Shown one piece after another: positions 37,808 to 61,509 of a DNA stretch of 64,000 nucleotides. The DNA is from an uncultured Caulobacter sp. (lineage in GTDB: Bacteria > Pseudomonadota > Alphaproteobacteria > Caulobacterales > Caulobacteraceae). Below the pieces are notes generated by a model. It worked only from the letters and a program-made list of their open reading frames with translations. It was not told the origin of the DNA and did not search any database. Position 1 is the first letter of the stretch. Each line of letters opens with the position of its first letter. The DNA is taken from NCBI RefSeq assembly GCF_947036865.1, contig NZ_CAMQSF010000012.1:1-64000 (forward strand). The letters are read 5' to 3'. A program made the position numbers and the translations under genes.

Positions 37808-38722
37808 ATGAAGACGTCGCTCGACCACCTTCCGGCCGCCAAGCGCAAGGAGCTCGACCTTGTGGTCGGTATCCTGCGGGAGGGTTTCGCCGAGGCCCTG
37901 AGCCGACGGACCATGCCGCGCTTTCGCAATGGCAAGATTCTGAAGATCATTCTGTTCGGCAGCTACGCTCGGGGTGATTGGGTCGAGGATCCCAAAGGCC
38001 GCTACTTCTCGGACTTCGACATCCTCGTCGTCGTAAATCACGACGACCTGGCCGACCTCGAAGAGTTCTGGTCCGGTCCGGACGAAACCCTCCTCAAGGA
38101 ACTGGCCTCAGGCGAACGCCTGCGCACTCAGCCGAACTTCATCGTCCACAGCCTCGACGACGTGAACGAGAAGCTTCGTCTGGGCCGCTACTTCTTTACG
38201 GATATCCTGAGAGACGGGATCACGCTTTTCGAAGAAGCCGGCTTTCCATTCGCCAATCCCGAGGCGCTTTCACCCCAAGACGCCTACAGCGAGACCAGAG
38301 CCTATTTCGATGAGTGGCACGCAAGCGCCGTAGGCTTCCTCGATACTGCTCTTTACGTCCGTCGACAGGGGCGACCTAAGGAGGCTGCCTTTCAGCTTCA
38401 CCAAGCAGCGGAACGCGCTTACCACGGGCTAATCCTGGCCCTCACGCTATATAGCGCCAAGACCCATCGACTGAATCTACTTCGCGATCGCGCAGAGGCC
38501 CTCGACAGTCGACTTGTTGGCGTCTGGCCGCGCACTAACAAGTTCGAGCGCCAGGGCTTCGATCTGATCCGCCGCGCTTATGTTGAGGCGCGCTACTCAG
38601 CGCACTACGAGATCTCCGATGAACATCTGGCTTGGCTGGAAGAACGGGTGGCCGCACTGCAGGAAGTGGTCGAGCGGATCGCACTTGATCGTATCGAGGC
38701 ATTGAGGGCCGCGGCCGCCTAG
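37808..38722 (+). CDS. fused MNT nucleotidyltransferase-HEPN protein
   Basis: IILFGSYARGDWVED...FSDFDILVVV (GSx10DxD) and C-terminal HEPN with RYSAHY (Rx4-6H). Confidence 0.85.
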   Translation: MKTSLDHLPAAKRKELDLVVGILREGFAEALSRRTMPRFRNGKILKIILFGSYARGDWVEDPKGRYFSDFDILVVVNHDDLADLEEFWSGPDETLLKELASGERLRTQPNFIVHSLDDVNEKLRLGRYFFTDILRDGITLFEEAGFPFANPEALSPQDAYSETRAYFDEWHASAVGFLDTALYVRRQGRPKEAAFQLHQAAERAYHGLILALTLYSAKTHRLNLLRDRAEALDSRLVGVWPRTNKFERQGFDLIRRAYVEARYSAHYEISDEHLAWLEERVAALQEVVERIALDRIEALRAAAA

Positions 38723-38906: not shown

Positions 38907-39731
38907 ATGACACTGCTGATGGTTTGGAGGGAAAGCGAGGCAGACCGTATATGGATCGTCAGCGACAGCCGCTTGTCAAGAGACGGCCCGACGGGCGGCA
39001 TTGACCGGATGACGGACCGCGCCGCGAAGATACTTGAAGCGGACCTCCACTTATTGGGGCGCGATCCTGGCCATCCCCCGCTAAAGTCTCGTACTGTTGG
39101 GTTTGCTTACACCGGAAGCACCCTTGTAGCGCTGGAGGCCTACGCTGCGGTGTTGCCGCTCTGGTCGCGGCTCATGTCTTCCGGCGAACAAAAGCTTCCA
39201 AGCATGGGAGATTGCGCCAGGCACTTAGGCGTATTCCTGAAAGCGTATGCGTTCGACCTTGCGAACAGCGGCGCCGTCGGCACGGAATGCATTCTTCTCG
39301 GCCGGGACGACGAGGCTGGCGTTGTGGAAGCGTGGCAGGTGAAGGTCCATAAGGTCGCTACCGGGATAGATCTTACCGTGGACCAGCTGAGGCTTGGGAA
39401 CGGCGAGCTCCAGTTATTCGGAAGCGGCAAACACGATGCGATCGCACGGCTGCGCGACCTGAACCCGGAGGCGAAACCCTGGCGACGTGAGCCGCTCGAC
39501 ATGCTGCGCGAGCAGTTGAGTCAGGACGAACTAGGCACCGTCGGCGGCGGTGTCCAAGTGGCCTTCGCTGCACCCGACCGCTTCCACCTCAGCGCGGATG
39601 CGACAGCTGCTGGTTGGGGTAGAGCTTCCTGGGGCGACCCTTGGGTTGCTATTCGCTTTCGCGGCTTTGACTTGTCTGAAGTTAGTCAGGTCGGACACAC
39701 TTTCGCGTCGCTGGCCGGCGTCAGCGGCTAG
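38907..39731 (+). CDS. hypothetical protein, possible Ntn-hydrolase fold
   Basis: MTLLMVWRESEADRIWIVSDSRLS...MTDRAAKIL resembles proteasome-like N-termini (Thr2). Confidence 0.5.
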   Translation: MTLLMVWRESEADRIWIVSDSRLSRDGPTGGIDRMTDRAAKILEADLHLLGRDPGHPPLKSRTVGFAYTGSTLVALEAYAAVLPLWSRLMSSGEQKLPSMGDCARHLGVFLKAYAFDLANSGAVGTECILLGRDDEAGVVEAWQVKVHKVATGIDLTVDQLRLGNGELQLFGSGKHDAIARLRDLNPEAKPWRREPLDMLREQLSQDELGTVGGGVQVAFAAPDRFHLSADATAAGWGRASWGDPWVAIRFRGFDLSEVSQVGHTFASLAGVSG

Positions 39732-40188
39732 GCGCAGAGACGCGACGATGCCGGTTGGGGCAGGATACACTTTGAAAGTGAGCCAGAAGAGGCTCCTTGA
39801 ATCGATCTTTCTTTACGTCACACTCCCAAACCTCCAGAACCCGCCAGCCCATCTCTTCTGCCTTCCTACGGTTAACGGCATCTCGAGCAACGTTCCGCTC
39901 AAACTTTTCAAGCCAAAGCGCCGTTCTAGTCTTAGGAATACTGGCATAGCGACAATCGGCATGACGGTGCCAAAAACAACCATGCACGAAAATCACTGTC
40001 TTCCATCTGGGAAGTACGATGTCCGGGCGACCGGGCATATTCGCTTCATGCAGCCGAAATCTGAGCCCCGCCCGGTGCAGCGCCCTACGCACGGCCATTT
40101 CCGGTGAGGTATTGCGACTGGAAACACGGCTCATAATCCGCCGCGTCAAGTCGCTGACCGGCACGTCTTCATCGAACTTTGACTGCAT
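39721..40188 (-). CDS. vsr: very short patch repair endonuclease (first copy)
   Basis: MSRVSSRNTSPEMAVRRALHRAGLRFRLHEANMPGRPDIVLPRWKTVIFVHGCFWHRH. Confidence 0.95.
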   Translation of the reverse strand: MQSKFDEDVPVSDLTRRIMSRVSSRNTSPEMAVRRALHRAGLRFRLHEANMPGRPDIVLPRWKTVIFVHGCFWHRHADCRYASIPKTRTALWLEKFERNVARDAVNRRKAEEMGWRVLEVWECDVKKDRFKEPLLAHFQSVSCPNRHRRVSAPSR

Positions 40189-40206
40189 AGGCGCCGCTCG
40201 CGGACT

Positions 40207-41370
40207 TTACTCTGCGGCTATTTGCAACCGCCCATGGTCTGTACGCGCGGCGAGTAGCGAGAATATGGCCTTAGACATGATTGGTGAGACGCTGTTCCCG
40301 ATCATGCGGAACGAATGCCAGACGGTCGGATGAAAGCGGAAGTCGTCTGGAAAACCCTGAAGGCGTGCGGCTTCGCGAACCGTGATCACGCGCGGCTCGG
40401 TGGGATGGATGGGTCGCACAGATTGGAATGAGCCGCGATCACTGCCTGTCCCCGCCCTCAAGGTTGGGCACTGCCCATCCCAAGCTAGACGAGGATGGCG
40501 CCCAATGATGTCAACTCCACCTTGGGCAACGTTGCGGAACCGCTCAATGACTGCAGCGGTGTGCGCTGTCTGGCGATGCCCAGTGAACTTGGCGTCAGGC
40601 GCAAGAAGTTGATCGCGATAAGAATTCCCCTCCGCTGAAGGTGGCAACTGCCAGACGTCGAAGCCTAAATCAGGCTCGCACTCGACTGCTGAGGAAAGGT
40701 CGCCGATGGCATCGGCCACGGTCGCGGCCGGCATTTTCGCACCCTCGAGGTCCGCGAGCGTGATTGGATCGCACCGACGGGGGTCCACCCCGATCACAAA
40801 GAGTCGTCGGCGCTTTGTAGCCGCCCCAAAGTCGGCGGCGTCGAGCAGCACGGGGCCGAGCAGATCGTACTTTCCCGCCACCCTTGCCATTGCTGCGTCC
40901 AGCACGGGCTTGGCGTCCGCATATCCCAGGCCTTTGACGTTCTCCATAACGAAGAACGCTGGAGAAATCTCAGCGACCAATCTGAAAAAGTGATCGAGAA
41001 GATCGCGTCTCGGGTCATCGACTTTTCGCTGGCCAATGTCGCTAAAGGCTTGGCATGGCGGCCCGCCGAAAACTCCCAACACATGGCCACCGGCGAGGTT
41101 TAGAATGTCGCTGCCGGTTGCGGTCGAAAGATCGCCAGGGATAAAGGTTGAATCTGGAAAGTTCGTAGAGAATGACGACGTCAGGATCGGGTCAACGTCG
41201 AACGCCAATTCAGCACCGAATCCGGCCGCGCGGGCACCCAAGGCGAACCCACCACAACCGGAGAACAAATCGACCATCCGAGGTTGCACTTGCACCGAGA
41301 GCCCCTTCAGCCGACTATGCCTCGGGGCGTTGATAACCTGTTTCGGTAGACTGGTCGACTTTCCCGACAT
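40207..41370 (-). CDS. DNA (cytosine-5) methyltransferase (first copy)
   Basis: MVDLFSGCGGFALGARAAGF...GGPPCQAFSDIGQ...FFVMENVKGL; start uncertain (41277, 41295 or 41370). Confidence 0.92.
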   Translation of the reverse strand: MSGKSTSLPKQVINAPRHSRLKGLSVQVQPRMVDLFSGCGGFALGARAAGFGAELAFDVDPILTSSFSTNFPDSTFIPGDLSTATGSDILNLAGGHVLGVFGGPPCQAFSDIGQRKVDDPRRDLLDHFFRLVAEISPAFFVMENVKGLGYADAKPVLDAAMARVAGKYDLLGPVLLDAADFGAATKRRRLFVIGVDPRRCDPITLADLEGAKMPAATVADAIGDLSSAVECEPDLGFDVWQLPPSAEGNSYRDQLLAPDAKFTGHRQTAHTAAVIERFRNVAQGGVDIIGRHPRLAWDGQCPTLRAGTGSDRGSFQSVRPIHPTEPRVITVREAARLQGFPDDFRFHPTVWHSFRMIGNSVSPIMSKAIFSLLAARTDHGRLQIAAE

Positions 41371-41395
41371 TTCGGACGGGCGAAGGTTTGGGCAC

Positions 41396-42826
41396 GTGAC
41401 GGAAAAAGATAAGACAATAGGAACGGCCTTCGCATCGCCGACCAAACAGTTCTTTGTAAGCATGTTAACTAGAGACATCGAGCTTCGCGACGCGATTCTC
41501 GACCTTCTAGATAACTGTGTTGACGGGATATTGAGATCGTCAAAGCCGGATTTAACTTCGCCCACTCCCTATGCAGGGTTCGAAGCCAAGATAATCATGG
41601 CGACTGACCATTTCCAGATAGTCGACAATTGCGGCGGCATTCCAATCGACACGGCAAAGAAATACGCCTTCGCCATGGGGAAGCCAGAAGGTGCCAGCGC
41701 AGATCGACCTCCCGCGACGGTTGGGATGTACGGCATCGGGATGAAGCGCGCGATCTTCAAACTCGGCACCGAGGCGCTAGTCGAATCTCTGAACGACACC
41801 GGCTTCTCCGTAGAGTTCACCGCCGAATGGATGAGCACTGAGGGCTGGAATGACCTGCCCATCCGTGAGCTGCCTGATGGCAAGCTCTCGACAAGCGGCA
41901 CCTCGATCACCGTCATGGAGCTCAACGAAGAGGTAAAGGCGGCATTCTCGTCGAATGGCTGGATTGACGAATTCAAAAAAATCGTCGCTCAGCATTATTC
42001 AATCATACTCAGTAAGGGCTTCTCCGTTTTTGTCGGCAAGACTCTTGAGGAGGCGCAGCCGATCACGCCCGAACCTTTCCTTTTGCTTCAGACAAGCGAA
42101 GTGAGCGGGGGCCGTATTGCACCCTATATCTACAAGGGGCAGATCGAGGGCGTGGATGTCGAAATCTACGCTGGCCTATACCGCGAACTGCTGACGGCAG
42201 AGGAGGCCGACCGAGAGGAGGAAACCCGTGGCACCACCGACGACGCAGGCTGGACGGTCGCCTGCAATGACCGAGTCGTCATCTGGAAGGATAAAACCCG
42301 ATTGACTGGCTGGGGCGAGGCGAATGTGCCGAACTATCATGGCCAGTTCATCGCCATTACGGGCATCGTTCTATTGAGAAGTGACGACCCAAGTAAACTT
42401 CCCCTTACAACAACCAAGCGGGGAATTGACGCCGCGTCTAACGTCTACTCGGAATCGAAGGACTTGATGCGTGAGGCGACGAAGAGCTTAACCTCATTTA
42501 CAAACAAGTGGAAGAAATTCCCTGAGAAGCTCGAGACTATATACAAAGCCAGTGAATATGTTGACCTACCAAAGCTTCGCGCAATCGCTGCTGAAACCCC
42601 ACTCACTGCGATGCGGAAACAGCCATCCGTTAGTAAATACGAACCGCAATACCCGATCCCTACTGAGGAGAAGACCCACGTCGTGGTCCGCTTTGAGGCA
42701 CCAAAAGCGGATGTCGCATTCCTCGGCGAGACCTACTTCGGAGAGGGGGAGAGCGTGAAGCCGGGAGACGTCGGGCGGGAAGCCTTCGACCGCGCGATCA
42801 AGGACGCGCGGAGTTCGAAAAAGTGA
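41396..42826 (+). CDS. GHKL (MORC/MutL-like) ATPase
   Basis: MLTRDIELRDAILDLLDNCVDGI...FQIVDNCGGIP...ATVGMYGIGMKRAIFKLG Bergerat-fold motifs; GTG start. Confidence 0.85.
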   Translation: MTEKDKTIGTAFASPTKQFFVSMLTRDIELRDAILDLLDNCVDGILRSSKPDLTSPTPYAGFEAKIIMATDHFQIVDNCGGIPIDTAKKYAFAMGKPEGASADRPPATVGMYGIGMKRAIFKLGTEALVESLNDTGFSVEFTAEWMSTEGWNDLPIRELPDGKLSTSGTSITVMELNEEVKAAFSSNGWIDEFKKIVAQHYSIILSKGFSVFVGKTLEEAQPITPEPFLLLQTSEVSGGRIAPYIYKGQIEGVDVEIYAGLYRELLTAEEADREEETRGTTDDAGWTVACNDRVVIWKDKTRLTGWGEANVPNYHGQFIAITGIVLLRSDDPSKLPLTTTKRGIDAASNVYSESKDLMREATKSLTSFTNKWKKFPEKLETIYKASEYVDLPKLRAIAAETPLTAMRKQPSVSKYEPQYPIPTEEKTHVVVRFEAPKADVAFLGETYFGEGESVKPGDVGREAFDRAIKDARSSKK

Positions 42827-43836
42827 GCGGCGCTTCTCTACCCTACCATCTCCGACCGCATAAAGCCGTCGATAGGCGCATCTTCATCGACCTTCTGAGC
42901 CGTATCGAACGCTGGCGCCCGCTGACCGACTACGTCTATCTCAGCATGGGGGCCTACCCGCTCGAGGATCACAAGCTCATCCACCGCGTGTTGGGGATCA
43001 AGCGGCTAATCGCCTTCGACATGGAGGGTGCCGTGGTCGCCCGCCAAAAGTTCAACAGGCCAGTGATCAGTTGCCAATGTATCGAGAAGACGTCAGGAGA
43101 AGTTGTTTCTGAAATTGACAAAATTCTGGAGAACTGCGGGTTCACTGGCCCGGACGGCGTAATCGTATGGCTGGACTACACCGATCCGAAAAAACTCGGC
43201 GAGCAAATACGAGAATTTGAATCTCTTCTTGATCGCTTGAGTACGGGCGATGTCGTGCGCGTCACCGTCAATGCTCACCCGCGCGAACTAATCGACTCGC
43301 CGTCAGAGAAACTCAAAACCGCCGAGGAGAAGCGCGATAAACAGTTTCAGGGCCTCCAAAATCGCATCAAAGAGTTTATGCCGTCTTGGGCAACCGCCGA
43401 TGACATGACTGCCGATAACCTCCCTAGAGTGATATCGGAATCGTTTGCGGCGGCAGCGCTCAAGGCATTTCCGGTCACCAGCAAGCGTACCTTTCGACCC
43501 TTGTCGATCGTCCGCTATGCCGACGCCAGCCAGATGCTTTCGATCACCGGCGTCATCGCAGACCGCACCGACGAAGGTCAGATGCTTTCACAGCTCGGGA
43601 TGGAGAAGTGGCCATTCTCATCCGACACTTGGTCGATAATACACAAGCTGGTAGTCCCCGACTTGACACTACGCGAGCGGCTATTCCTTGAGCGAGAGGT
43701 CGTCGCCGCAGCTCCAGAGGCCATCATCGAAGGACTGGGCTTCGATGATGCCGGCGGAATTTCGGTCGCCGATTTCATCGATAACTATCGCAACTACTAT
43801 CGATTTTACCCAAGCCTGTTGACGGCGGAACTCTAG
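42823..43836 (+). CDS. uncharacterised partner, Rossmann/methyltransferase-like
   Basis: YVYLSMGAYPLEDHKLIHRVLGIKRLIAFDMEGAVVARQKFNRP...GVIVWLDYTDPKKL; 4-bp overlap with ATPase gene. Confidence 0.65.
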   Translation: MSGASLPYHLRPHKAVDRRIFIDLLSRIERWRPLTDYVYLSMGAYPLEDHKLIHRVLGIKRLIAFDMEGAVVARQKFNRPVISCQCIEKTSGEVVSEIDKILENCGFTGPDGVIVWLDYTDPKKLGEQIREFESLLDRLSTGDVVRVTVNAHPRELIDSPSEKLKTAEEKRDKQFQGLQNRIKEFMPSWATADDMTADNLPRVISESFAAAALKAFPVTSKRTFRPLSIVRYADASQMLSITGVIADRTDEGQMLSQLGMEKWPFSSDTWSIIHKLVVPDLTLRERLFLEREVVAAAPEAIIEGLGFDDAGGISVADFIDNYRNYYRFYPSLLTAEL

Positions 43837-44826: not shown

Positions 44827-45288
44827 TTACCACCGTCCGCCGATCTGCGCGCTCGGTTCGCCCCCGGCAAGCCACACGCGGATAGCAGCGGCAACATTAT
44901 CCTGCTTGCGCTTTGCCCGCCCCCGGAGTGCGCACTCCCACACCGTAAGCACTCGCCACCCAGCGCTAAGCAAAGTCGCTTGGTCCCGGACATCACGTGC
45001 CTGATTTCGCTCGATCTTCTCCCGCCAGAAATCTTGGCGGGTGGCAGGCAGCTTGAACATCGGACAGTCATGCCCGTGCCAGAAACAACCGTGCACGAAG
45101 ATCACTGCACGCCGGCCGGGAAACACCAAGTCAGGCTTACCTGGCAGATTGCCATGGAGGCGGTATCGCAGGCCGGCGGCGTGTAGCGCGCGGCGGACGA
45201 TCATCTCCGGCTTGGTGTCCTTCCCACGTATAGCCGACATGTTCCGTCGCCGTTGTTCGGCGGTCAGCGGGTCGACGCCGCTGGTCAC
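44827..45288 (-). CDS. vsr: very short patch repair endonuclease (second copy)
   Basis: RRRNMSAIRGKDTKPEMIVRRALHAAGLRYRLHGNLPGKPDLVFPGRRAVIFVHGCFWHGHDCPMFKLP. Confidence 0.95.
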   Translation of the reverse strand: MTSGVDPLTAEQRRRNMSAIRGKDTKPEMIVRRALHAAGLRYRLHGNLPGKPDLVFPGRRAVIFVHGCFWHGHDCPMFKLPATRQDFWREKIERNQARDVRDQATLLSAGWRVLTVWECALRGRAKRKQDNVAAAIRVWLAGGEPSAQIGGRW

Positions 45289-45305
45289 TGGCGGCCTGCG
45301 CGCGG

Positions 45306-46955
45306 TCAGGGCGCCGCTCCGACATCCGCATCCTTGAGGATCGTCTCAAGCGCCATTTCGATCTGGCCGGCATTCATCCCGGGCGCCAGCGTCACGGCGC
45401 CGAACCGGAACTTCCCCCGATAGTCAGGATGAAACAGCCGCCCCGGCATCGCCGCGGTTTCCCAGTTGCCCCCGAAAGTCGGCGAAGCCGGGCTGAGGAG
45501 GTATGCGCCGCTCACCAGCTGGCGCACCTCGCCCGCGCCATCAGCAACGACGAGAGCATCCCGGTACATGTGGGCCGACGCCAGCGCATCGTTCAGCCCG
45601 GCGCCAATACGATACTTTGCGTCGAGGACGATCAGGCGGCCTGCCCCATCAAGGGCCTCAATGGCGACGTCGGGACGCATTTCACGGCTGAAGCTGCCGC
45701 GACCATCCCTTTCGCGCCAGTACTCGCGGTACGTCCTTTGAAAACAGAGTGCGATCCCCGCCGAGGGGAGGCGAACGACCGCCTGGCCGGCGGCCAGTGT
45801 GATGCCCTGTCCTGCTTCAAAAAGCCCGGAGAAATCGACCTCATCGGCGCCGTACTTCACCACGGCCGCGCGGGCGAGCCGCAAGTACGACCACAGCTCA
45901 TAGAGGTCAAATGTCCGCGCCAGTGGCATTTGCAGGAAGTCGCCAAAGACGTCGGCAATGCCCCTGGAAAAATCACGATGGAGCGCCGCGAACCGCCTGT
46001 ACTGAGGCTCGCCGCGCCAGATTGGCGTGGCGTCAGGCCGCGGAGGCCCTGCTCCGATATCCTGCAGGAATGGTAGCGCCAGGAGGTCCCTAAGCTCCCT
46101 GGACATTCGTCGTGTACGACGCGCCCAAAGCCTGACCAGACGCCCGTCCTCAGGATCTTCCGGTGTGCGCTTTCCGAAATCACTGGCCACGCCATCGAGC
46201 CAGCGCGCCCACACCTCCAGCGAGGCCTTGATCTGCCGGTGCGCGGGGATGTCGAGACTGGACCTGCGGATACTCCGTCGGATCGTAGCGGGCAGATGCC
46301 CTCGCATCGCGGAGGGAAGTCGCGAGCCCCCAGTTTCCGCGATCAGGCGCCCTGAGCGGAAGGACTTCAGCACTTCGGGCGGCGTTGCGCGGCCAGCCCG
46401 CCAGAATGGCGTCAGCTCGTCCTCTGCTTTGAGAACGCGCCTTGGCCTTGCATCGATGGCGCGGACCGTCTGGACCAGTATGCCCATACGGCTCCGCAGA
46501 AACTCAAGACGGGCAACGGGCGGCGGTTTGCGTCCGGCGCCGCGGGCCACAGCCTTCCGGAACGAACTGAGGGCGAAGAGCGCGAAGGTGTCCTCGAGCA
46601 CCTCGCTCACCATTACGTCGAAGGCCTCACGGCTGAGCTTGCGCACTTCCGGGTCTGTCGTGATCTCGAAAGCGAAACTCTGCCCCTGGAGCTTCAGGCA
46701 GCAATCCACGACGCCGGCATGAAAGCCCGGCTCCCATCTCCAGCGCGCAGCGTCCGGCTCCGGGGCGCGCAGCGCTTCGAGCGGCAGCTCATCAATGAGC
46801 AGATCCGCCTGCGCCGCGCCCTGGGCGCCTGTCAGAACGAAGAGGTGCTCACGCGCCTCTTCGATCAGACCTGATGGCATCGCTTCGGGGTCCGGCCAGA
46901 CCCGGACCGCCCGCGTAGGATCGCGGCTTGGCCAGATGTGGAGTGTGGCGCTCAC
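45306..46955 (-). CDS. DUF2357/PD-(D/E)XK nuclease, McrC/LlaJI-type subunit
   Basis: RPDVAIEALDGAGRLIVLDAKYRIG nuclease signature; 4-bp overlap with McrB-like gene. Confidence 0.85.
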   Translation of the reverse strand: MSATLHIWPSRDPTRAVRVWPDPEAMPSGLIEEAREHLFVLTGAQGAAQADLLIDELPLEALRAPEPDAARWRWEPGFHAGVVDCCLKLQGQSFAFEITTDPEVRKLSREAFDVMVSEVLEDTFALFALSSFRKAVARGAGRKPPPVARLEFLRSRMGILVQTVRAIDARPRRVLKAEDELTPFWRAGRATPPEVLKSFRSGRLIAETGGSRLPSAMRGHLPATIRRSIRRSSLDIPAHRQIKASLEVWARWLDGVASDFGKRTPEDPEDGRLVRLWARRTRRMSRELRDLLALPFLQDIGAGPPRPDATPIWRGEPQYRRFAALHRDFSRGIADVFGDFLQMPLARTFDLYELWSYLRLARAAVVKYGADEVDFSGLFEAGQGITLAAGQAVVRLPSAGIALCFQRTYREYWRERDGRGSFSREMRPDVAIEALDGAGRLIVLDAKYRIGAGLNDALASAHMYRDALVVADGAGEVRQLVSGAYLLSPASPTFGGNWETAAMPGRLFHPDYRGKFRFGAVTLAPGMNAGQIEMALETILKDADVGAAP

Positions 46956-49456
46956 CGGCTGGTCTGGAACGCCCCAAGCTCGTCAAGATCGCGTTGCAGC
47001 CGATCTATCAGAGCTCGCGAGCGGGGCCGGCCGGCATTGGTCTCGGCAAGCTTCCGGAGAAGGTCGCGCTGAGCCTCCGAGCCGCGCAGTCGCGCCAGGG
47101 CTTTCTGGACAAGCTGGTCATCGATCACCTCCTCCGACGACCGGCCGAGATGATCGGTGGCGAAGGCGTGGTAACGGACGAACTCTTCGGCCAGTCGATA
47201 GCCAAAGCCAAGTCCGTGCGGCCCCAGCAAAGCGCTCAGATCCTGGAGAACCGGCCGACAGGCGCCGATAGAGGCGTTCAGCGCATCCTCTCGAGCTCCA
47301 AGCGTGTCGAAGAAGGATCCAAGATCGACATCAGACATGTCGATGACAACGGCCCGGTCCATCACCTTGTCGCTAAGCGTGCTGGTCGTCTCGTCGACGT
47401 TGATCGTGCCGACCAGGAAGAGGTTGTGCGGCACGCGAAGGCTTGCCGGAACTTCACCGCCCGTACTGCCGACCATCGGCACGCCGCTGGAGTGGAGGGA
47501 GATTTCGTTGCGGCTCTCGATCGCGCTCAGGATGTCGGAGAAATAATACTCGACCCTGGCGAGGTTCATCTCGTCGAGAATGACGAACACCGGTGAGGCT
47601 GGGTGGGCGGTCGCCACCAGCAGCGCCTCCAGGAACTTTGGCACGACGTACTGGCCTGACAACCGATCCTCATAGCCGGTCAGGCCGCTCGGGTCGGTCC
47701 ACTCAGGACGCACCGGACAGACAAACAGCAGCGGATCCGCGGCCTCCATGCTCTCAAGGCCATGGATCGTGCGCGCGTATTGCAGGGCCAGCTGCGTCTT
47801 ACCCGTCCCCGAAAGCCCGGACAGAATGACGAAATGTTTGTGCTGCAGGTGGTTGAGGCCGGCGTGGAAACGGTCGATCAGGGCGTCAGGGTAGACCCCG
47901 CCCAGCGCCGCAACACCACGGCGGATCGCCTGCGGCGAGACGTCTGCCGGCATCCGCTGCATAAGCGGGCCAACGCCGCTCTCCGACGACCACACCTTCA
48001 GCTCATGCACCTTCTCGCGGCCCACGAGGCGCCCCAGGTAGCCGACAAACTCCCGAGCCAGCAGACTGCGCCTTGCCGAAACGGTCGGCGGCCAGATCGC
48101 GAATTCAATCGATTCTACAGCCGCCGAACGGCTTCTGAGTGTCGGCTCGGCTGAGATCGATTCGAAGAAGTCATTGCTGAAACCAATCCTGCCTTCTTCG
48201 TTGAGGTAGAATTTGACGTTGTTGTTGATCCGCGACGGTCGATCACCCTCAGCCTTCCCCCCGTTACGCGCCTCGACATCCCGGTAGAGTTCGACCAGGC
48301 CGGCATCGAGGCTCTCACGGTCTTCGCTGACGGTGATCGCGAAGTAGACCTCGTCATATGGCGGAAACGTCAGGACAGAGGCGAAAACGTAAGCCGATGC
48401 CCCGCCGGCGCCCGTGATCACGTTCTTTGACGCGCCCTCCATGTTTGCCGTGCAGGCAAACAGTCCGCCCTCGAGGAGACGCGCGCTGTTCGAGAAGCCA
48501 AAATTGGTCGCGACCTTCGCATTAGGGCCGGCTTTTTCCGTGACGAAAGCGGTGAACTGCTTCTGCCGATCAGTGGAGGACTGCGCCGGCTGGGGCAGAT
48601 CGCCCAGCGGCAGGGTATTTTGCTTACTCACCACAGACTTACTCTCGCTCCCCTCATCGGAGCGCCACTTTGAGGCGAACTCAGCCTCATAGAAATCGAA
48701 ATCTGCACTCCCGCGCGCCTGCGCGATCGAATTCCGGATTTCGAAGAGCCGACGATCCCTGGCCGCCCGGTCTAACTGTTTTACCGCCGCCGGGTCATCG
48801 CCACCCAGGCCAACAATCACCCGGCGCTTGTCGGCGCCGCTCGAAATTCGCTCGAACACGTCGGGGAAGAGGAGGTGCTCGACGATATGCGAGAACTGGC
48901 GCGTGCCGTCGGAATGGACGCTGGCCAGAAACCCTGAAAAGGCCCAGGCGTCGCCCAGGACTTGAACCCTCTCTGGCGGGGGAAGGTCCTTCAGCCGGGC
49001 GACCAGGTCGAGAAGATAGGCAAACTCCCGAGGTCGGTGGGTATTGAAGGCCGTACCGGCCGAGCCAAGCCCCCCGAGAACATCGTCGCTCAGCCACTTT
49101 TCATCAGGAGCCGAATGCTTCGAGCGCCAGGACAGTACCTCATGCACAGTTTCCCGCTTCTTGTCCGCTCCGATATTCGAAGGAAACAGAAGCAGGATCC
49201 AGAGTAACTCGGCTGCGAGCTCATGGATGGCGTCAGCCTGACCAGTGAGCTGCCTTCTGAGCTTGGTGAGAAAGCTGTCCTGCCCATCCTCTGCGCCGTC
49301 CCGGAAGGCATTTCGCACCTGGGCGATGTTGGCGCCGGTCCAGAGACCGCGCCCCGCGAAAAGGGCCGATCCATCTGTCAGGAGACAGCTATGGCGCCAG
49401 TGCGCGGCGGCTGCGAATACCGCGTCCGCGGGATGATGAGGGTTGAATCTCGACAT
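46952..49456 (-). CDS. McrB-like AAA+ GTPase with MrcB/DUF3578-type N-terminus
   Basis: FVILSGLSGTGKTQLALQYARTIHG...FVILDEMNLARVEYYFSDILSAIESR...LFLVGTINVDETT. Confidence 0.92.
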   Translation of the reverse strand: MSRFNPHHPADAVFAAAAHWRHSCLLTDGSALFAGRGLWTGANIAQVRNAFRDGAEDGQDSFLTKLRRQLTGQADAIHELAAELLWILLLFPSNIGADKKRETVHEVLSWRSKHSAPDEKWLSDDVLGGLGSAGTAFNTHRPREFAYLLDLVARLKDLPPPERVQVLGDAWAFSGFLASVHSDGTRQFSHIVEHLLFPDVFERISSGADKRRVIVGLGGDDPAAVKQLDRAARDRRLFEIRNSIAQARGSADFDFYEAEFASKWRSDEGSESKSVVSKQNTLPLGDLPQPAQSSTDRQKQFTAFVTEKAGPNAKVATNFGFSNSARLLEGGLFACTANMEGASKNVITGAGGASAYVFASVLTFPPYDEVYFAITVSEDRESLDAGLVELYRDVEARNGGKAEGDRPSRINNNVKFYLNEEGRIGFSNDFFESISAEPTLRSRSAAVESIEFAIWPPTVSARRSLLAREFVGYLGRLVGREKVHELKVWSSESGVGPLMQRMPADVSPQAIRRGVAALGGVYPDALIDRFHAGLNHLQHKHFVILSGLSGTGKTQLALQYARTIHGLESMEAADPLLFVCPVRPEWTDPSGLTGYEDRLSGQYVVPKFLEALLVATAHPASPVFVILDEMNLARVEYYFSDILSAIESRNEISLHSSGVPMVGSTGGEVPASLRVPHNLFLVGTINVDETTSTLSDKVMDRAVVIDMSDVDLGSFFDTLGAREDALNASIGACRPVLQDLSALLGPHGLGFGYRLAEEFVRYHAFATDHLGRSSEEVIDDQLVQKALARLRGSEAQRDLLRKLAETNAGRPRSRALIDRLQRDLDELGAFQTSR

Positions 49457-49463
49457 CCCTGCT

Positions 49464-50969
49464 TCAGCCCGCTTCGGCCGAGGGGCGGACCAGATCTGAA
49501 CCGCGCGCCAGAGCCGACCGCAGCGTTGCGAGCATCTCGGTCGCGACAGCCTTGGACAGCAGCGGAGGCACGGCGTTGCCGATCTGCTTGAACGCCGGAT
49601 TCATCGTCCCGGAAAATACAAATCCATCCGGAAAGGACTGAAGCCGCGCGGCCTCGCGAACCGATATGGTCCGAGCCTGAGCGCTGTCGTAGTGAATGTG
49701 GCTGTAGCTGTCCTTACCCAGGTGCGCCATAAGCGTGCGCGCCGGCAGGTCAGGCTCCATCTTGCGCCACTTGTTGGGGAATTTTCCAACGTCGTAGGGC
49801 GGGACGATGGAGTCGCGCAGGTTCTGCCATGCGGCAGATCCCTTCCTCGGCGCGGAGCCGGTCTCGCGACGCAGGGCCTCCAGCGCTTCCTCAAACATGC
49901 GCAGCGCATGGGCGTGCGCCTGAGGATACTGATCTCCGGGATTGAGGCGAGCGAACAGCTTCCAGTCGCGGGGCAGATAACGGATGACGTGATCGCGCAC
50001 GCCATCGCTGTTCTCCCGACCGCTCCAGCCCCGCATAAGGGCGCCGTAGCTCCCGGCACGCGCCTTGCCGCCGTAGGGGATCAGTTCATCGAACCTGCGC
50101 GCCCCCTTGGTAAGCTTTCCCTCGAGATGCAGCGTGATCGGCGGCAGGTCCTCAAGCGCCGCCTTGGCGGTGATCGCTGGCGGCAGAGACGGATCAGCTT
50201 CAGGCGGATCCATGTAGCTGACCGGCTCTCCGCTCGTTGACCGGCGGTTCAGGAGTTTCAGCGCCACCTGCCGGCTGCCCGCGTAGCCGGGGGGCAGCTT
50301 CATGTAGTGGGTGGGCTGCGGGAAGCTGATTTCGGCGCCGAGTTCCTTGCGATAGGCGATCAGGATCATCCGCTCGCGCATCTGGGGAACGCCGAAGTAC
50401 GAGGCATTGAGCAGCGTATAGCCCGCGACGTACCCCTTATCGCGCAGGACCTCGCACGTCTCCTCAGCGATATTCTGGCCGCCATGATTGAGCATGTCCG
50501 GCACATTTTCCATCAGAAGCGCCAGAGGCTGGAACGCTTCCACATAGTGCAGGTACTCCAGATAGAGGCGGGCCCGAGGATCGTGCTTGAACGCCTCGGG
50601 ATGCTCATCGATCTCCCGCAGCTTTGAGCGCCCGACGCGCGCGAACGCCTGACACGGCGGCCCGCCCACAATGACGTCGATCGCGGAAGAGACGCCGCCC
50701 AGCTCCAGATCCTCCGCGAGCTGTTCAGGCGAGAGTCTGGTGATATCGCGAGGCTGAGCGTGTCGCGGGTCGCCCGGGTGAAAGTTGGCGCCATGCGACG
50801 CGGCCGCATCGCGATCAAACTCAACCGCCGCGGCGATTTCAAACCCAGCCGCCTGGAATCCGAGGGAGATGCCACCGCAGCCGGCGAAGAGATCGAGCAC
50901 CCTTGGGGCCCCGCCGGCCTGCAGGCGAGCGATTTTTGACAGTATGGTCTGGCGCGTATCGACAGTCAT
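49464..50969 (-). CDS. DNA (cytosine-5) methyltransferase (second copy)
   Basis: RVLDLFAGCGGISLGFQAAGFEIAAAVEFD...GGPPCQAFARVGRSK...LLMENVPDML. Confidence 0.95.
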   Translation of the reverse strand: MTVDTRQTILSKIARLQAGGAPRVLDLFAGCGGISLGFQAAGFEIAAAVEFDRDAAASHGANFHPGDPRHAQPRDITRLSPEQLAEDLELGGVSSAIDVIVGGPPCQAFARVGRSKLREIDEHPEAFKHDPRARLYLEYLHYVEAFQPLALLMENVPDMLNHGGQNIAEETCEVLRDKGYVAGYTLLNASYFGVPQMRERMILIAYRKELGAEISFPQPTHYMKLPPGYAGSRQVALKLLNRRSTSGEPVSYMDPPEADPSLPPAITAKAALEDLPPITLHLEGKLTKGARRFDELIPYGGKARAGSYGALMRGWSGRENSDGVRDHVIRYLPRDWKLFARLNPGDQYPQAHAHALRMFEEALEALRRETGSAPRKGSAAWQNLRDSIVPPYDVGKFPNKWRKMEPDLPARTLMAHLGKDSYSHIHYDSAQARTISVREAARLQSFPDGFVFSGTMNPAFKQIGNAVPPLLSKAVATEMLATLRSALARGSDLVRPSAEAG

Positions 50970-53523: not shown

Positions 53524-53645
53524 AATTCTTTTTCGCGGCGACAGGAATGAGCCGGAGATGGCGCGTCTGAGCCACGATGCCATGCGCCGTGCACAGAAGA
53601 TCCGTCACACGACGGACGCCGGGCCGGTGTCGGAGGGGACCGATC

Positions 53646-56600
53646 TTGCCTAGCACCACCTTGAAACACCGCCTGCTCGCGAGCCTGGCCGCCACGCTGC
53701 TGGGGACGGCATGCGCGGCTCAGGCCATGGCCGCGCCGACCGAGCAGAACCAGGTCGTCGCGTTCAACATCCCGCCCGGGCCTCTTGAGCCGGCGCTACA
53801 GGCCTTCGCCGCTCAGAGCGGCCGCCAGATCCTGTTCGCGCCGGAGCTGGTCGCGGGCCTGACGACCGCGGGCGTTCGCGGAAGCCTGACACCCGAGGCG
53901 GCCATCGCACAACTGGTGGCCGGAGCGCCCCTCGAGATCCGGCGCGGCGGCAAGAGTGGGTTTGTCCTGAAGGCGCGCGCCGTCGCGGCGGGAGGCGACA
54001 CAACCGCCCCTTTTGAAGCGACCGGGGAAGGCCCCGCCAACGAGGTCGCCGAACTGCTGGTCACGGGATCGCTGATCCGCGGGGCGAGGGACGGCGCCTC
54101 GCCCGTCGTCGCCTTCGACCGCGAGGCGATCGACCGCGCCGGCCACGGCAACCTCGCCGAAGCCCTCGCGGCCCTGCCGCAGAACTTTGGCGGCGGTGCG
54201 AGCCCGGCCAGTCAGTTGCTCGGCTCGGACCGAACCTTCGTCAACGACACGGCGGCCTCGGGCGTCAACCTGCGAGGCCTGGGCAACTCCGCGACCCTGG
54301 TGCTGCTCAACGGCCGGCGCATGGCCGGGACCGGCCTGAAGGGCAATTTCGCGGATGTCTCGGCGATCCCCACCGGGGCCATTGACCGCGTCGAAGTGCT
54401 GCTGGACGGCGCCTCGGCGCTCTACGGCGCGGATGCGGTGGGCGGTGTCGTCAACGTCATCCTGCGCCAGACGTTCGAGGGGGCCGAGACCCGTCTGCGA
54501 TCGAGCCTTGCCCAGAGGGGCGACGCGGCCGAGCTGCAGTTCGGCCAGACCTTCGGCGCGCGCTGGAGCGGAGGCCGCGCCGTGGTTTCGGCGGAGTATT
54601 ATCAACGCGACGCCCTGGCCGCCTCGGCACGCGCCCAGACCGCAAGCAGCGACCTGCGTCCGCTGGGCGGGACCGACCACCGGGTCCAGTTCGCCAATCC
54701 CGGGAACATCGTCGCCTACAGCGCAGCGGCCGGGGCCTATGTGCCGGTCTACGCCATCCCGTCCAGGGGCGTCGGGCTCAAACCCTCCGATTTCGTGGCG
54801 GGGGCGATGAACTTCGGCGAGCCCCGCGCGGGATCTGACACGCTGCCCGATCAGGAGCGCGTCAGCCTCTATGCGACGCTCGGCCAGACCCTGGGCGCGG
54901 TCGAACTGTCCGCCGACGCGCTTTACACCCACCGCAAGTTCAGCTTCGCCCAGGGCGGTTCCTCCTCGATCATCACCGTCACCAGCGCCAACCCCTATTT
55001 CGTGCCGATCGCGGGGGAGGCCTCACAGTTGATCGCCTATGACTTCGTCGGCGTGCTCGGCTCAAACCGGCTCGAGGGCACGGCCGAGAACCTTGGCCTG
55101 TCGCTCGGCGCGGCCCGCGATTTCGGGCGCACCTGGCGCGGCGAAGTCTACGCGGCGTTCTCGACGGACAAGGGTGAGCGCAACCAGGACCAGGCGCTCA
55201 ATTCCGGCTTCCTGCGCGAGGCTCTGGGCTCGGTCGCCGATGATCCTTCGACAACCTATTCGGCCGCGCGCGACGGCTACTTCAATCCCTATGGCGACGG
55301 CGCGGCGAACAGTGATGTGGTCAAGGCCTTCATCCGCAGCGGCTACCAGCACCACTGGCGACGCAACCGCGTTTCCTCGGTCAACCTGAAGCTCGACGGT
55401 ACGCTGGCGGAACTTCCAGGCGGCGCGCTGAAGCTCGCGGCCGGGGGGCAGTTGCGCAAGGAGGACTTTCTTGTTCGCAACGCCTACCTGACCTCGGGCG
55501 CCAGGGTGACGACGACGGACGGCACGCTGTTCGAACGTGACGTCCGCTCAGCCTTCGCCGAACTGCGCGTGCCGATCTTCGGCCCTCACCAGGACATCCC
55601 TGGCCTGCGCCGCCTGGAGCTTTCGCTCGCCGGCCGCATCGAGCGCTACAGCGACTTCGGGGTGAGCCGAAATCCCAAGGTCGGCGTGGTCTGGGAGCCG
55701 GTCGAGGGCGTCAGGTTCCGAACCAGCTACGGCACCTCGTTCCGCGCGCCCACCCTGGCCGACATCAACGAGCCCTATGTGATCAGCGCCGCCTTCGTGC
55801 CCGACGTGACGGGCAACACGTTGAGCCTGATCCAGACGGGCGGGAACCTTGGCCTGCGGCCCGAGACCGCGCGGTCGTGGACGACCGGCGTCGACCTGAC
55901 GCCAGCCTCCCGTCCCGGGGTCCGACTGGGCGTCACCTACTTCGACACGCGGTTTTCCAACCAGGTCGGACATCCGGTCTACGAGGACATCCTCAACGCC
56001 CTGAAGAACCCGATCTACAAGGACTTCGTTCGACGGCTCAGCGCCAGCAACGCCGGCGATGTCGCCGCTGCTCAGGCGCTCATCGACGCGGCGACGAGTT
56101 CGACGCCAAAACTGTTCCCCGCCAACGCCTATGGCACGATCATCGATGCGCGGAACCTCAACGCCGGTGAGCTGGACGTGCGCGGCCTCGACATCAGCGG
56201 CGCCTGGCCCGCCAGGCTCGGCGGTGAGACGCTCAGCCTGACCGCGAGCGTGTCATACCTGTTCGAGTACAGCCGGCGCATCAGCCCCTCGGCGCCCTCG
56301 ACATCCTTCGTCGACACTGCTGGTTTCCCCGTCGACCTGCGCGCCGTGGCCGGGGCCAGTTGGACCCACGGGCCACTCCTGGCCAACCTCTCCGTCCGCT
56401 ATGTCGACGATTACCGATCGACGACGGGCCAGAGGATCGGCTCGTGGACCACGACTGATGTGCTGATGCGCTGGACCGCGCCAGCGTCAGCGGGTCCGCT
56501 CCGCGGCGTTACGGCCAGCCTGTCGGTCCAGAACCTGCTGGGGACAAAGGCGCCGTTCTACGACTCGTTCGACGGGGTGGGCTACGACCCGACCAACGCC

Positions 56601-56648
56601 GACGTGTTGGGCCGCGTGGTCGCCCTACAGCTGAACAAGCGCTGGTAG
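53646..56648 (+). CDS. TonB-dependent receptor with STN domain
   Basis: NIPPGPLEPALQAFAAQSGRQILFAPELV (STN), plug and barrel; TTG start inferred from signal peptide. Confidence 0.93.
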   Translation: MPSTTLKHRLLASLAATLLGTACAAQAMAAPTEQNQVVAFNIPPGPLEPALQAFAAQSGRQILFAPELVAGLTTAGVRGSLTPEAAIAQLVAGAPLEIRRGGKSGFVLKARAVAAGGDTTAPFEATGEGPANEVAELLVTGSLIRGARDGASPVVAFDREAIDRAGHGNLAEALAALPQNFGGGASPASQLLGSDRTFVNDTAASGVNLRGLGNSATLVLLNGRRMAGTGLKGNFADVSAIPTGAIDRVEVLLDGASALYGADAVGGVVNVILRQTFEGAETRLRSSLAQRGDAAELQFGQTFGARWSGGRAVVSAEYYQRDALAASARAQTASSDLRPLGGTDHRVQFANPGNIVAYSAAAGAYVPVYAIPSRGVGLKPSDFVAGAMNFGEPRAGSDTLPDQERVSLYATLGQTLGAVELSADALYTHRKFSFAQGGSSSIITVTSANPYFVPIAGEASQLIAYDFVGVLGSNRLEGTAENLGLSLGAARDFGRTWRGEVYAAFSTDKGERNQDQALNSGFLREALGSVADDPSTTYSAARDGYFNPYGDGAANSDVVKAFIRSGYQHHWRRNRVSSVNLKLDGTLAELPGGALKLAAGGQLRKEDFLVRNAYLTSGARVTTTDGTLFERDVRSAFAELRVPIFGPHQDIPGLRRLELSLAGRIERYSDFGVSRNPKVGVVWEPVEGVRFRTSYGTSFRAPTLADINEPYVISAAFVPDVTGNTLSLIQTGGNLGLRPETARSWTTGVDLTPASRPGVRLGVTYFDTRFSNQVGHPVYEDILNALKNPIYKDFVRRLSASNAGDVAAAQALIDAATSSTPKLFPANAYGTIIDARNLNAGELDVRGLDISGAWPARLGGETLSLTASVSYLFEYSRRISPSAPSTSFVDTAGFPVDLRAVAGASWTHGPLLANLSVRYVDDYRSTTGQRIGSWTTTDVLMRWTAPASAGPLRGVTASLSVQNLLGTKAPFYDSFDGVGYDPTNADVLGRVVALQLNKRW

Positions 56649-56705
56649 CGCCGGGCGGGGGCGCCCGGCGCGTCCCCGCCTTCCTCCATAGAGAAGGTCA
56701 ACTCC

Positions 56706-59147
56706 ATGCGACTGCTTCTGCAGTGCGCAGCCCTTTGCTGCGCCCTCTTCGCCACGGCCGCGCAGGCCCGACCCTTCACCGTCGACGACCTGATGAAGAT
56801 CGATCGTCGCTCGGCGGTCGGCGCCTCGCCCGATGGCCGCTGGCTGGTCATCACGATCGATCGTGGCCTCGACCATGCGCCGCGCTTCGACTACGGCGCC
56901 GCGCCCCAGTTCATCACCCGACGGCTTTACCGCGTCGACCTCGCCCATCCTGGTCCGGCCACACCGCTCCTCGCGCAGGACGCGGACGCCGGATACACGG
57001 CCGGTCCGTTCTCTCCCGATGGTCGCCGGCTGCTGGTCACGCGCATGCGCGGGCACAGCTCCGAGAGCGGCGTCGTCGAGCTCGCCACGGGCGCTGTCCG
57101 CTGGTTTGGCGTCGGGCTCGACTTTTCGCTCATGGGACGCACCGCTCAGTGGCGCGGTGACCACGAGGTCGTCGCCATCGTCACACCGCCCGATCGCCCG
57201 CACTTCGTCTTCCGGCGTGGCTGGGAGAGCATGGCCTACCGCTCGGCGGCCGCCCGGATCACCGCGGAGACCGGAGGGCCCAGCGTGCTGGCGATCGGCA
57301 GCGGCAAATACCTCGACCGCGGCGCGCCAGGCATGCAGCGGGCGCTTGTCCGCATTGATGTCGACACCGGTCGCTTCAGACCGCTGGCGACCGGCGAGTT
57401 CCTGGATCTCGAGCTATCGTCGAGCGGCCGCTACGTGGCCACCTACGCCTATGGCGCCGACATCCAGCCGAGGGCCTCGGACCGGATCCTCGGCGGGACC
57501 TCGCCGCGACGCCGCGACCTCTCGGTCTTCGACCTGGAGACCGACAGGCGGCTGCCCGGCTGTGAGGACTGCGACCTGTCATCCTTCCTGCTGGCCTGGG
57601 CGCCGCGGTCGGACCGGTTGCTGGTCTATGCCCGCCGGCCCGGCCAGCCACCGGAGGCCGGCGGCCTCATGATGCTCACGCCGCAGACCGGCCGCCTCAC
57701 CGCTCGCCGGCTCGACCAGGTCAGACCGCGCCTCGACTACACCTACGAGGGGTTCGAGATTCCGCGCGCCGGCTGGGTCGGCGAGACGGCGGTCGTGCTC
57801 GGTCGGCCAGCGGCCGGTCCAGACTCGCCGCCCGACCGGTGGCTGAAGGTGGTGGGCGAAGGGACCGCGCCGCTCCTGCCGGAGGCGGCCCCCACGCGCC
57901 CCGACCGGATTGTCAGCGACGCGGCAGGCCGGATGGTGGTGGTCGGCGCCGGGCGGGTCTTGCGGATCGCGCGTGGCCGCATGACCAGCCTGGACGGCGC
58001 AACCGCCGCGCCGGCCCCGGTGCTGGGTGAGCAGGGCCGCCCGGCCATGGCCAGCCTGGTCGCGGGCGACGGGCTGCTCGTCCGCCGCAACGGTCGGCTG
58101 GTCAGGCTGACAGCGGAACGCGAGCAGGACCTTGGCGAAATCTCCGACACGGCCCTGGTCGTTACGGGAAGCGGCTGGTCGGTCATCGCCGACCGCGACG
58201 GCCATGGGGTCGAGACCATAAGGGCCCGACACGGCGGCGAGACGGTCGAGCTGATGACGCTCAACCCGCAACTGGCGGGCATCGAGTTCGGAGAGGTCCG
58301 GGCCATCGCCCACAAGGGCCCGAGCGGCGAGCCGCTCACCAGCTGGATCGTGCTTCCGCCAGGCTGGCGCGCGGACCGTCCGCCGCCGCTGGTGGTGATC
58401 CCCTATCCCGGCCGCGGGGTCTTCGGCGCGGCGGCCCCACCAGCCGACGCCCGGCCCGGCGCCGCCCATTCCACCGTTTCGCCGCTGGTGCTGGCTGGCC
58501 ACGGCTATGCCGTGCTCTATCCGAGCCTGCCGCACAACCGCTTCCCCAACGAACCGGCTCAGGGCCTGGCCGAGGAGATCCTCGCCGTGCTCGACACGCC
58601 GGAAGTCGCCCGCCTTGCCGATAGCGGGCGGGTGGCGATCTGGGGCCATAGCTTCGGCGGTCAGGCGGCGCTGTCAGCGGCGACCCAGTCCGATCGTTTC
58701 AAAGCCATCATCTGCACGGCCGGGATCAGTGACATGATCACGCGCTGGGGAAGCAACTTCCTGCAATCGACGCCAGAGGAGGGCCTGCCGTTCATGGGCA
58801 CCTTCGGCTATTTCGAAACCGGACAGATGGCGGTCGGCGGGCCGCCCTGGGCCGTACCGGAACGATACGTCCGAAACAGCGCGCTCTTCCACGCCGACAA
58901 GATCACCGCGCCGGTGCTGCTCGCCTATGGCGATCTCGACGAATATGGCTATGGGCAGGGCGCGGAGATGTTCGCCGCGCTCTATCGCCAGGGCAAGGAT
59001 GCGCGCCTGCTGACGTTCTGGGGCGAAGGCCATGTGGTGAACGGGCCCGGCAATGTCCGGCGGCTTTATCGCGAGGCCCTAGACTTCCTCGACGAGGCGT
59101 TCGGGGCTCGGCCGAGGTCCGAGCCCGGCGAGCCGGCGCGTCCATGA
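56706..59147 (+). CDS. prolyl-oligopeptidase-like lasso peptide isopeptidase (AtxE-like)
   Basis: GRVAIWGHSFGGQAAL serine-hydrolase motif, YGDLDEYG, EGHVV; between TBDT and cyclase genes. Confidence 0.9.
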   Translation: MRLLLQCAALCCALFATAAQARPFTVDDLMKIDRRSAVGASPDGRWLVITIDRGLDHAPRFDYGAAPQFITRRLYRVDLAHPGPATPLLAQDADAGYTAGPFSPDGRRLLVTRMRGHSSESGVVELATGAVRWFGVGLDFSLMGRTAQWRGDHEVVAIVTPPDRPHFVFRRGWESMAYRSAAARITAETGGPSVLAIGSGKYLDRGAPGMQRALVRIDVDTGRFRPLATGEFLDLELSSSGRYVATYAYGADIQPRASDRILGGTSPRRRDLSVFDLETDRRLPGCEDCDLSSFLLAWAPRSDRLLVYARRPGQPPEAGGLMMLTPQTGRLTARRLDQVRPRLDYTYEGFEIPRAGWVGETAVVLGRPAAGPDSPPDRWLKVVGEGTAPLLPEAAPTRPDRIVSDAAGRMVVVGAGRVLRIARGRMTSLDGATAAPAPVLGEQGRPAMASLVAGDGLLVRRNGRLVRLTAEREQDLGEISDTALVVTGSGWSVIADRDGHGVETIRARHGGETVELMTLNPQLAGIEFGEVRAIAHKGPSGEPLTSWIVLPPGWRADRPPPLVVIPYPGRGVFGAAAPPADARPGAAHSTVSPLVLAGHGYAVLYPSLPHNRFPNEPAQGLAEEILAVLDTPEVARLADSGRVAIWGHSFGGQAALSAATQSDRFKAIICTAGISDMITRWGSNFLQSTPEEGLPFMGTFGYFETGQMAVGGPPWAVPERYVRNSALFHADKITAPVLLAYGDLDEYGYGQGAEMFAALYRQGKDARLLTFWGEGHVVNGPGNVRRLYREALDFLDEAFGARPRSEPGEPARP

Positions 59148-60857: not shown

Positions 60858-60858
60858 G

Positions 60859-61509
60859 TCAGACGGCCAGAATCGGCGTGAACGGCAGGACATGGTCGAG
60901 CCGGTCATCGAGCACGGTCTCTCCCGCCTGCAGCCAGCAATGGGCCTCGAAGGGCCAGGTCTGAACCCCGAACACCCACGTGGCGTCCAGCCCGCGCCGG
61001 CGCAGGAAGGTCAGCAGAAAGAACGAGCGATAGAGGCAGACCCCCTGACACGGAGCCCAGGGCAGGAGATGTCGGAAGATGGCGACCTCGTCGGCGAGTC
61101 GCGCTGGCGCCGGCGCCTCCACATGACGGCGCGTTTGGGCGGCATGGGCGATCAGACGCCCGAACGAGCGGCCATGATAGCGGACCAGCATGGTTGTCCA
61201 GGCGCCGGCGCCCGCCATCCAGTCGGCGCCGCGGATCGATGACGCCGGATGGTCGATCAGATCGGCGCGTGGCGACGGCGGAAGGGGCGCGGCGACCGAC
61301 CGTCCCGCGCCAGCCAGACCCAGCGCGGCGGCCTCCCTGGCGACGGCGTCGTCGAGCACTTCGACTGGGCCTGTAGCCGGTTGGAAGAACAGCTCCGCGG
61401 CGTCAGGCAGGCAGAGATACTCTCCAAGGCCAGCGTCGAGCAGAACGACATCGCGGCCCAGCCGCGCGAGATGGACGTCGGGGCGCAGTCGCATGGGGTC
61501 TCCGGACAT
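60859..61509 (-). CDS. lasso peptide B protein (RRE + transglutaminase-like leader protease)
   Basis: PqqD-like N-terminus DVVLLDAGLGEYLCLPDAA; CQGVCLYRSFFLLTFLRRRGLDATWVFGVQTWPFEAHCWLQAGETVLDD (Cys/His/Asp). Confidence 0.93.
   Translation of the reverse strand: MSGDPMRLRPDVHLARLGRDVVLLDAGLGEYLCLPDAAELFFQPATGPVEVLDDAVAREAAALGLAGAGRSVAAPLPPSPRADLIDHPASSIRGADWMAGAGAWTTMLVRYHGRSFGRLIAHAAQTRRHVEAPAPARLADEVAIFRHLLPWAPCQGVCLYRSFFLLTFLRRRGLDATWVFGVQTWPFEAHCWLQAGETVLDDRLDHVLPFTPILAV

Follow-up and report, generated by a model that had tools for sequence, protein, structure and literature searches.

Eukaryotic MORC ATPases silence genes and transposons and close a dimeric clamp on DNA; an origin in bacterial restriction systems has been proposed for them. 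The closest described bacterial relatives are the prokaryotic MORC/paraMORC restriction-modification neighbourhoods, in which a GHKL ATPase with an S5 domain and the MORC motif is linked to Dcm and Vsr; according to the available text of that study, a minority of the MORC operons have methylases or nucleases but no helicase, and MORC was predicted to form DNA loops that link the site of recognition to the site of cleavage (Iyer, Abhiman and Aravind, 2008; PMC2292703). A comparable arrangement is found in the HEF_HK units, where a GHKL-derived ATPase and a partner, the receiver-like domain Response_reg_2 (PF19192), lie beside a C5 methylase and Vsr (PMC8011034). In the wider group, Shedu I-D/paraMORC3 (VcSduA), a fusion of a GHKL ATPase with a nuclease, has been proven to protect against phages and requires its ATPase to do so (PMC12137116).

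The locus described here lies in a 64,000-nt stretch of an uncultured Caulobacter sp. genome (contig NZ_CAMQSF010000012.1), which we refer to as the window. Two genes on the minus strand encode a Vsr mismatch endonuclease (39721..40188; TIGR00632, 126 bits; Pfam Vsr, E 1.2e-25) and a C5-cytosine DNA methyltransferase, Dcm (40207..41295; PF00145 DNA_methylase, E 6.4e-50; TIGR00675 above cut-off). Divergent from them, on the plus strand, are the genes for a 476-aa MORC-family GHKL ATPase (41396..42826) and a 337-aa partner (42823..43836), separated from dcm by an intergenic stretch (41296..41395) that presumably holds the promoters. The dcm reading frame is open back to 41565 and has start codon candidates at ATG 41277 and GTG 41295; the true start probably lies between these positions. 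The ATPase gene runs from GTG 41396 to a stop at 42826, the ORF listed from 41036 being over-extended, and the partner starts at GTG 42823, with GTGA common to the ATPase stop and the partner start. Family matches and coordinates agree with the divergent layout and the 4-bp overlap given in a preliminary description of this DNA.

G+C content is 54-59% across the four genes versus 66-70% in the flanks, which fits recent acquisition of the set in the cargo region of a conjugative element; TrbI and TrbL lie upstream. The host genome has three Dcm genes in 4.25 Mb, so the chance of finding one within a few kb is below about 1%, and the four-gene set is found again in relatives far beyond chance. 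One related locus (L008) repeats the divergent layout of the window, and in seven others dcm, vsr and the pair all run in one direction.

A type II restriction-modification system would share the DNA methyltransferase, Dcm, but an adjoining cognate restriction endonuclease was not found in the neighbouring genes of the window. No endonuclease family except Vsr was matched there, and one unmatched ORF remains a candidate. It encodes a 274-aa protein (38907-39731, plus strand), convergent with vsr and overlapping it at the 3' ends, that matched no family in three libraries and is absent from related units. A PD-(D/E)xK gene at 45306 is part of a separate Dcm plus McrB-like operon (44827-50969, minus strand), which encodes Vsr, a DUF2357/PD-(D/E)xK nuclease, a McrB-like AAA ATPase and another Dcm; this second cytosine-methylation restriction operon resembles Dcm+McrBC-type systems such as LlaJI. 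In one further protein of the window (37808-38722, plus strand), a HEPN domain comes after a nucleotidyltransferase domain, so that the two halves of an MNT-HEPN toxin-antitoxin type share a single chain. At about 53577-61509, an asparagine-synthase-like cyclase, a Transglut_core3 protease, a TonB receptor and an S9 peptidase fit a lasso-peptide cluster.

Profile scans with PADLOC and NCBIfam matched only Dcm and Vsr, with no match for the ATPase or its partner, in keeping with the preliminary view that the pair is not an assigned system. BREX is a methylation-based system of self/non-self discrimination that restricts without known cleavage. The module proposed below would likewise tell self from non-self by methylation, and no BREX family was matched in the window genes scanned.

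The ATPase has Bergerat-fold GHKL motifs with an intact ATP site. HATPase_c_3 matches the window protein at E 6.6e-5, just under the cut-off, and matches all 31 aligned relatives. The S5-domain motif GhXhhpXXRhl, which in the available text of PMC2292703 unites MORCs and excludes other GHKL proteins, occurs at residue 285 in 31/31 relatives versus 0.13% of shuffled sequences, and on this basis we assign the enzyme to the MORC family, as had been proposed from the window alone. D36, N40, D77-G81, G110, G113, G115, K117 and K122 are invariant in the 31 ATPases, and the N-box (D36/N40, its acid being D, not E), DNCGG, GxYGxG and TTTK are invariant or nearly so. The AlphaFold2 model (pLDDT 87) agrees with this fold and matches Hsp90, SMCHD1, MORC2 and MORC3 in Foldseek; two alignments for structure prediction were built without plasmid and phage-record proteins. 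Domain scans of the ATPase returned HATPase domains only, with no nuclease domain and no DUF4263. A GHKL ATPase is common to this protein and VcSduA; the fused DUF4263 nuclease is found only in the latter (PMC12137116).

The partner had been described as a Rossmann methyltransferase-like protein of no recognisable family. The fold has held up, and the lack of a family has not: the protein matches Pfam PF20553 (Methyltransf_35, 'Putative O-methyltransferase') over its full length at E 7e-74. PF20553 is the sole family in the Pfam scan, with no Response_reg_2, which distinguishes this partner from that of the HEF_HK units. Structure prediction of 42823-43836, a check put forward in the preliminary description, gave a confident class I SAM-methyltransferase fold (pLDDT 91.3, pTM 0.90). 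The best Foldseek match is Trm1 (3axs; E 9.6e-6, TM-score 0.44), and the other matches listed are SAM-dependent enzymes of the class I fold. Given these low global TM-scores, the partner is not close to any solved family; a sequence search of solved structures found nothing significant. All 47 PF20553 relatives keep G43, an acid (D/E) at 66, W116 and D118, which makes SAM binding by the partner likely. They also keep Y8, R11, K14 and R18 in a conserved N-terminal motif, Y-x-x-R-x-x-K-x-x-x-R.

Relatives were drawn from 84,980 species genomes, viral contigs, plasmids, phages and a further genome set, and 121 loci were counted after removal of known duplicates. PF20553 is rare, occurring in 4/61, 5/385, 6/299 and 5/399 genomes in four samples. 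A MORC gene lies directly upstream of it in 118 of the 121 loci; of the other three, one lies at a contig end, one has its pair interrupted by an insertion (L067) and one is at the rearranged end of a contig (L011). Dcm is present within 3.5 kb of the pair in 95 loci and anywhere in the available locus DNA in 108. This neighbourhood survey, also suggested earlier as a check, thus upholds the claimed link to 5mC methylation, and it also places the pair repeatedly in mobile and defence settings. The 13 Dcm-less loci are mostly DISARM loci with the dcm end beyond the available DNA, or contig ends; the real exceptions are L013, L063 and probably L012, of which L012 and L013 are cyanobacterial. At L063 (9480-16045), genes for a SNF2-type helicase and a NOV_C-domain protein run divergently from the pair, and the available DNA contains no Dcm.

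Vsr, an optional member, lies near the pair in 27 of the 121 loci, the window included. The preliminary description had taken the four genes as the unit, with no obvious nuclease besides Vsr, and the survey corrects the place given to Vsr and the size of the unit: most units have no Vsr, and the core is three genes (MORC-PF20553-Dcm). We accordingly rejected Vsr as effector nuclease. A common flanking nuclease was rejected as well, since none is shared among units and many have none at all. Recognised endonucleases and helicases are missing from most units, but some chromosomal ones have an added restriction enzyme: HNH_2, MvaI/BcnI or an unnamed PD-(D/E)xK-like ORF (the motif was read by eye in L014, L055 and L067).

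Viral contigs were searched with the ATPase alone as query. PF20553 adjoins the ATPase in 69 of 80 cases; the remaining 11 ATPases are larger (about 570-630 aa where complete), and 10 of them are beside Dcm. Many viral contigs are near-copies, and clustering at 88% identity leaves 80 of the 118 ATPase-PF20553 pairs. These larger GHKL ATPases without PF20553 (L173, L176-L179, L181-L186) represent a related but different arrangement.

In the commonest order, seen in 47 loci, ATPase and partner are followed by a Dcm gene that points towards them. Dcm occurs in all four arrangements relative to the pair (codirectional upstream, codirectional downstream, facing, divergent), which indicates that its partnership with the pair has been re-formed or kept through rearrangement. 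Pairwise identities correlate at 0.96 between ATPase and partner, 0.73 between ATPase and Dcm, and 0.78 between ATPase and the Dcm recognition region, which was delimited by motif in 85 of 93 cases. In most pairs the recognition region of the accompanying Dcm is related, consistent with a shared site. In L040, however, a close pair accompanies a very different Dcm (20-21% identity to the Dcm of its relatives), which makes it less likely that the Dcm site is read strictly. In a tree built from the concatenated pair, the DISARM label changes 3 times, viral versus cellular origin 17 times, and the Dcm+Vsr state undergoes at least 12 gains or losses. The window pair groups with alphaproteobacterial and actinobacterial Dcm-Vsr units and one viral one.

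The minimal unit is MORC-PF20553-Dcm, with no recognisable nuclease, helicase or Vsr. In the E. coli locus L187, these are the only three genes between the portal and replication-endonuclease genes of a P2-like prophage, and in L189, in a lambdoid-like prophage, the triple likewise stands alone among phage genes; neither unit leaves space for a linked nuclease. In the Pf phage PfAC20 the triple is joined by one further 105-aa ORF. In total, the unit is present in 218 of the 5,426 complete E. coli genomes searched (45 + 173, about 4%), and nearly all copies are complete among the matches listed. In six other P2-like prophages the portal/replication-endonuclease gap has different content or is empty; where filled, it contains Lamassu LmuABC, a PDC-S28 helicase, an NsnB/AriA-like ATPase or unmatched genes. 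This P2-like gap, shared with Lamassu and candidate defence genes, is the strongest context evidence for defence. In one E. coli genome (L188), dcm is split in two, possibly through a sequencing error, and the pair is intact; this disfavours a strongly toxic effector, which would not tolerate such a state.

The pair also occurs inside some class 1 DISARM operons. A Microvirga plasmid (L006) encodes Dcm, Vsr, DrmD, an MmeI-like methylase, the ATPase, PF20553, DrmA, DrmB and DrmC; NCBIfam models confirm DrmD, DrmA, DrmB and DrmC. The arrangement (Dcm-Vsr-DrmD-DrmMI-pair-DrmA-DrmB-DrmC) recurs in about 20 further loci. An L006-type operon at 66-91% identity lacks the pair (L098), and this comparison identifies the pair as an optional cassette and not a core DISARM part. 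Two other class 1 DISARM loci, L102 and L103, have a different three-gene insert between the DrmMI-like gene and DrmA (in L102 one of the three genes encodes an HTH plus IrrE-like peptidase), so the DrmMI/DrmA junction may be a general cassette site. In contrast to the DISARM loci, the ten cargo genes scanned in the window include no DISARM-specific family, DrmA and DrmB among those sought; DrmM models match there as generic cytosine methylases. The host genome has no DrmD above cut-off. The DrmD family search is noisy, with other helicases giving matches in 390/399 genomes and six genomes above cut-off, and none of these six had PF20553 in the same 399-genome sample.

With a probability of roughly 55%, we read the unit as a mobile 5mC-based restriction-modification-like defence module, in which MORC and its partner would act against DNA without the Dcm mark. 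Our best guess from the sequence is that the pair is the effector of an undescribed restriction-type defence. This reading is supported by the obligate pair, the Dcm linkage, the minimal prophage units, the P2-like defence gap, the DISARM cassette and the Shedu I-D precedent. It is weakened by the Dcm-less loci L012, L013 and L063, the split dcm of L188 and the Dcm replacement in L040, and also by the many phage-borne units, because methylases in phages can also protect phage DNA.

Judging from its family, Dcm would methylate the carrier's own DNA. The MORC ATPase and the PF20553 protein, co-translated, would form an ATP-driven complex on incoming DNA without this mark, where the SAM-methyltransferase-fold partner may read or load onto the site. 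By analogy with eukaryotic MORCs, the ATPase may then close a dimeric clamp on the unmethylated DNA, and the clamp could block or compact that DNA or pass it to host nucleases. Clamping appears the likeliest action because the minimal three-gene form has no recognisable nuclease. Vsr, where present, would repair T:G mismatches from 5mC deamination; some units add a dedicated restriction enzyme, and in others the pair sits within class 1 DISARM. In its most specific form, which we offer tentatively, this would be a three-gene nuclease-free restriction-modification system, with Dcm marking self, MORC and a methyltransferase-fold reader restraining unmethylated foreign DNA by clamping or compaction, and the pair lent as a cassette to DISARM and to units with a restriction enzyme.

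The SAM-site residues intact in 47/47 relatives and the ordinary class I fold of the partner would also suit a second modification enzyme, that is, an active PF20553 methyltransferase driven or targeted by the MORC ATPase and adding an extra mark alongside Dcm. Such a mark could complete self-protection in DISARM or restriction-modification systems, and in DISARM the pair does adjoin the adenine methylase DrmMI; or it could shield phage DNA from host restriction, in line with the many phage-borne units. To our knowledge, however, methyltransferases rarely need a GHKL clamp ATPase. The position shared with Lamassu in P2-like prophages is one of defence cargo, and the L098 DISARM, with Dcm, Vsr and DrmMI, manages without the pair, so we consider a second modification enzyme fairly unlikely.

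It is unlikely, too, that the pair acts as an accessory helper or regulator of nearby restriction systems and is unable to restrict alone. DNA looping of the kind predicted for MORC in restriction-modification operons (Iyer et al., 2008; PMC2292703, in its available text) would be one such role, and the units with HNH_2, MvaI/BcnI or PD-(D/E)xK-like endonucleases, as well as DISARM, would provide something to assist. Most units, however, offer no recognised endonuclease or helicase, and the P2-like prophages hold only the three genes between phage genes. MutL assists Vsr in E. coli, and the kinship of GHKL ATPases with MutL could mean that the pair serves Vsr as its own MutL-like partner when deaminated 5mC is corrected by very-short-patch repair; Vsr is beside Dcm in the window, and 26 other loci have it close to the pair. 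Vsr is nevertheless absent from most units while Dcm stays, and the Dcm+Vsr state is as changeable on the tree as noted above. The Vsr-less units largely refute this role, which we consider very improbable.

Returning to the defence-module reading, its general kind, a MORC with a methylase in restriction-modification neighbourhoods, was predicted in 2008 (PMC2292703). The available text of that study names no methyltransferase-fold partner of such a kind, whereas the partner here is obligate, and a nuclease-free phage-borne three-gene form and a DISARM cassette form occur as well. Searches of the open literature, with subscription papers and preprints outside their scope, did not find PF20553, a DISARM with GHKL and Vsr, or a P2-like hotspot with GHKL. 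We found no earlier description there of the obligate PF20553 partner, the nuclease-free phage form or the DISARM cassette, and one may exist.

The survey also points to the ATPase-PF20553 pair as an optional part of class 1 DISARM that has so far gone unlisted. The role of bacterial MORCs is poorly tested, and a small nuclease-free unit with clear catalytic residues, present in about 4% of complete E. coli genomes, provides a direct test case. If our reading is true, a nuclease-free clamp system would be a direct bacterial counterpart of eukaryotic MORC silencing.
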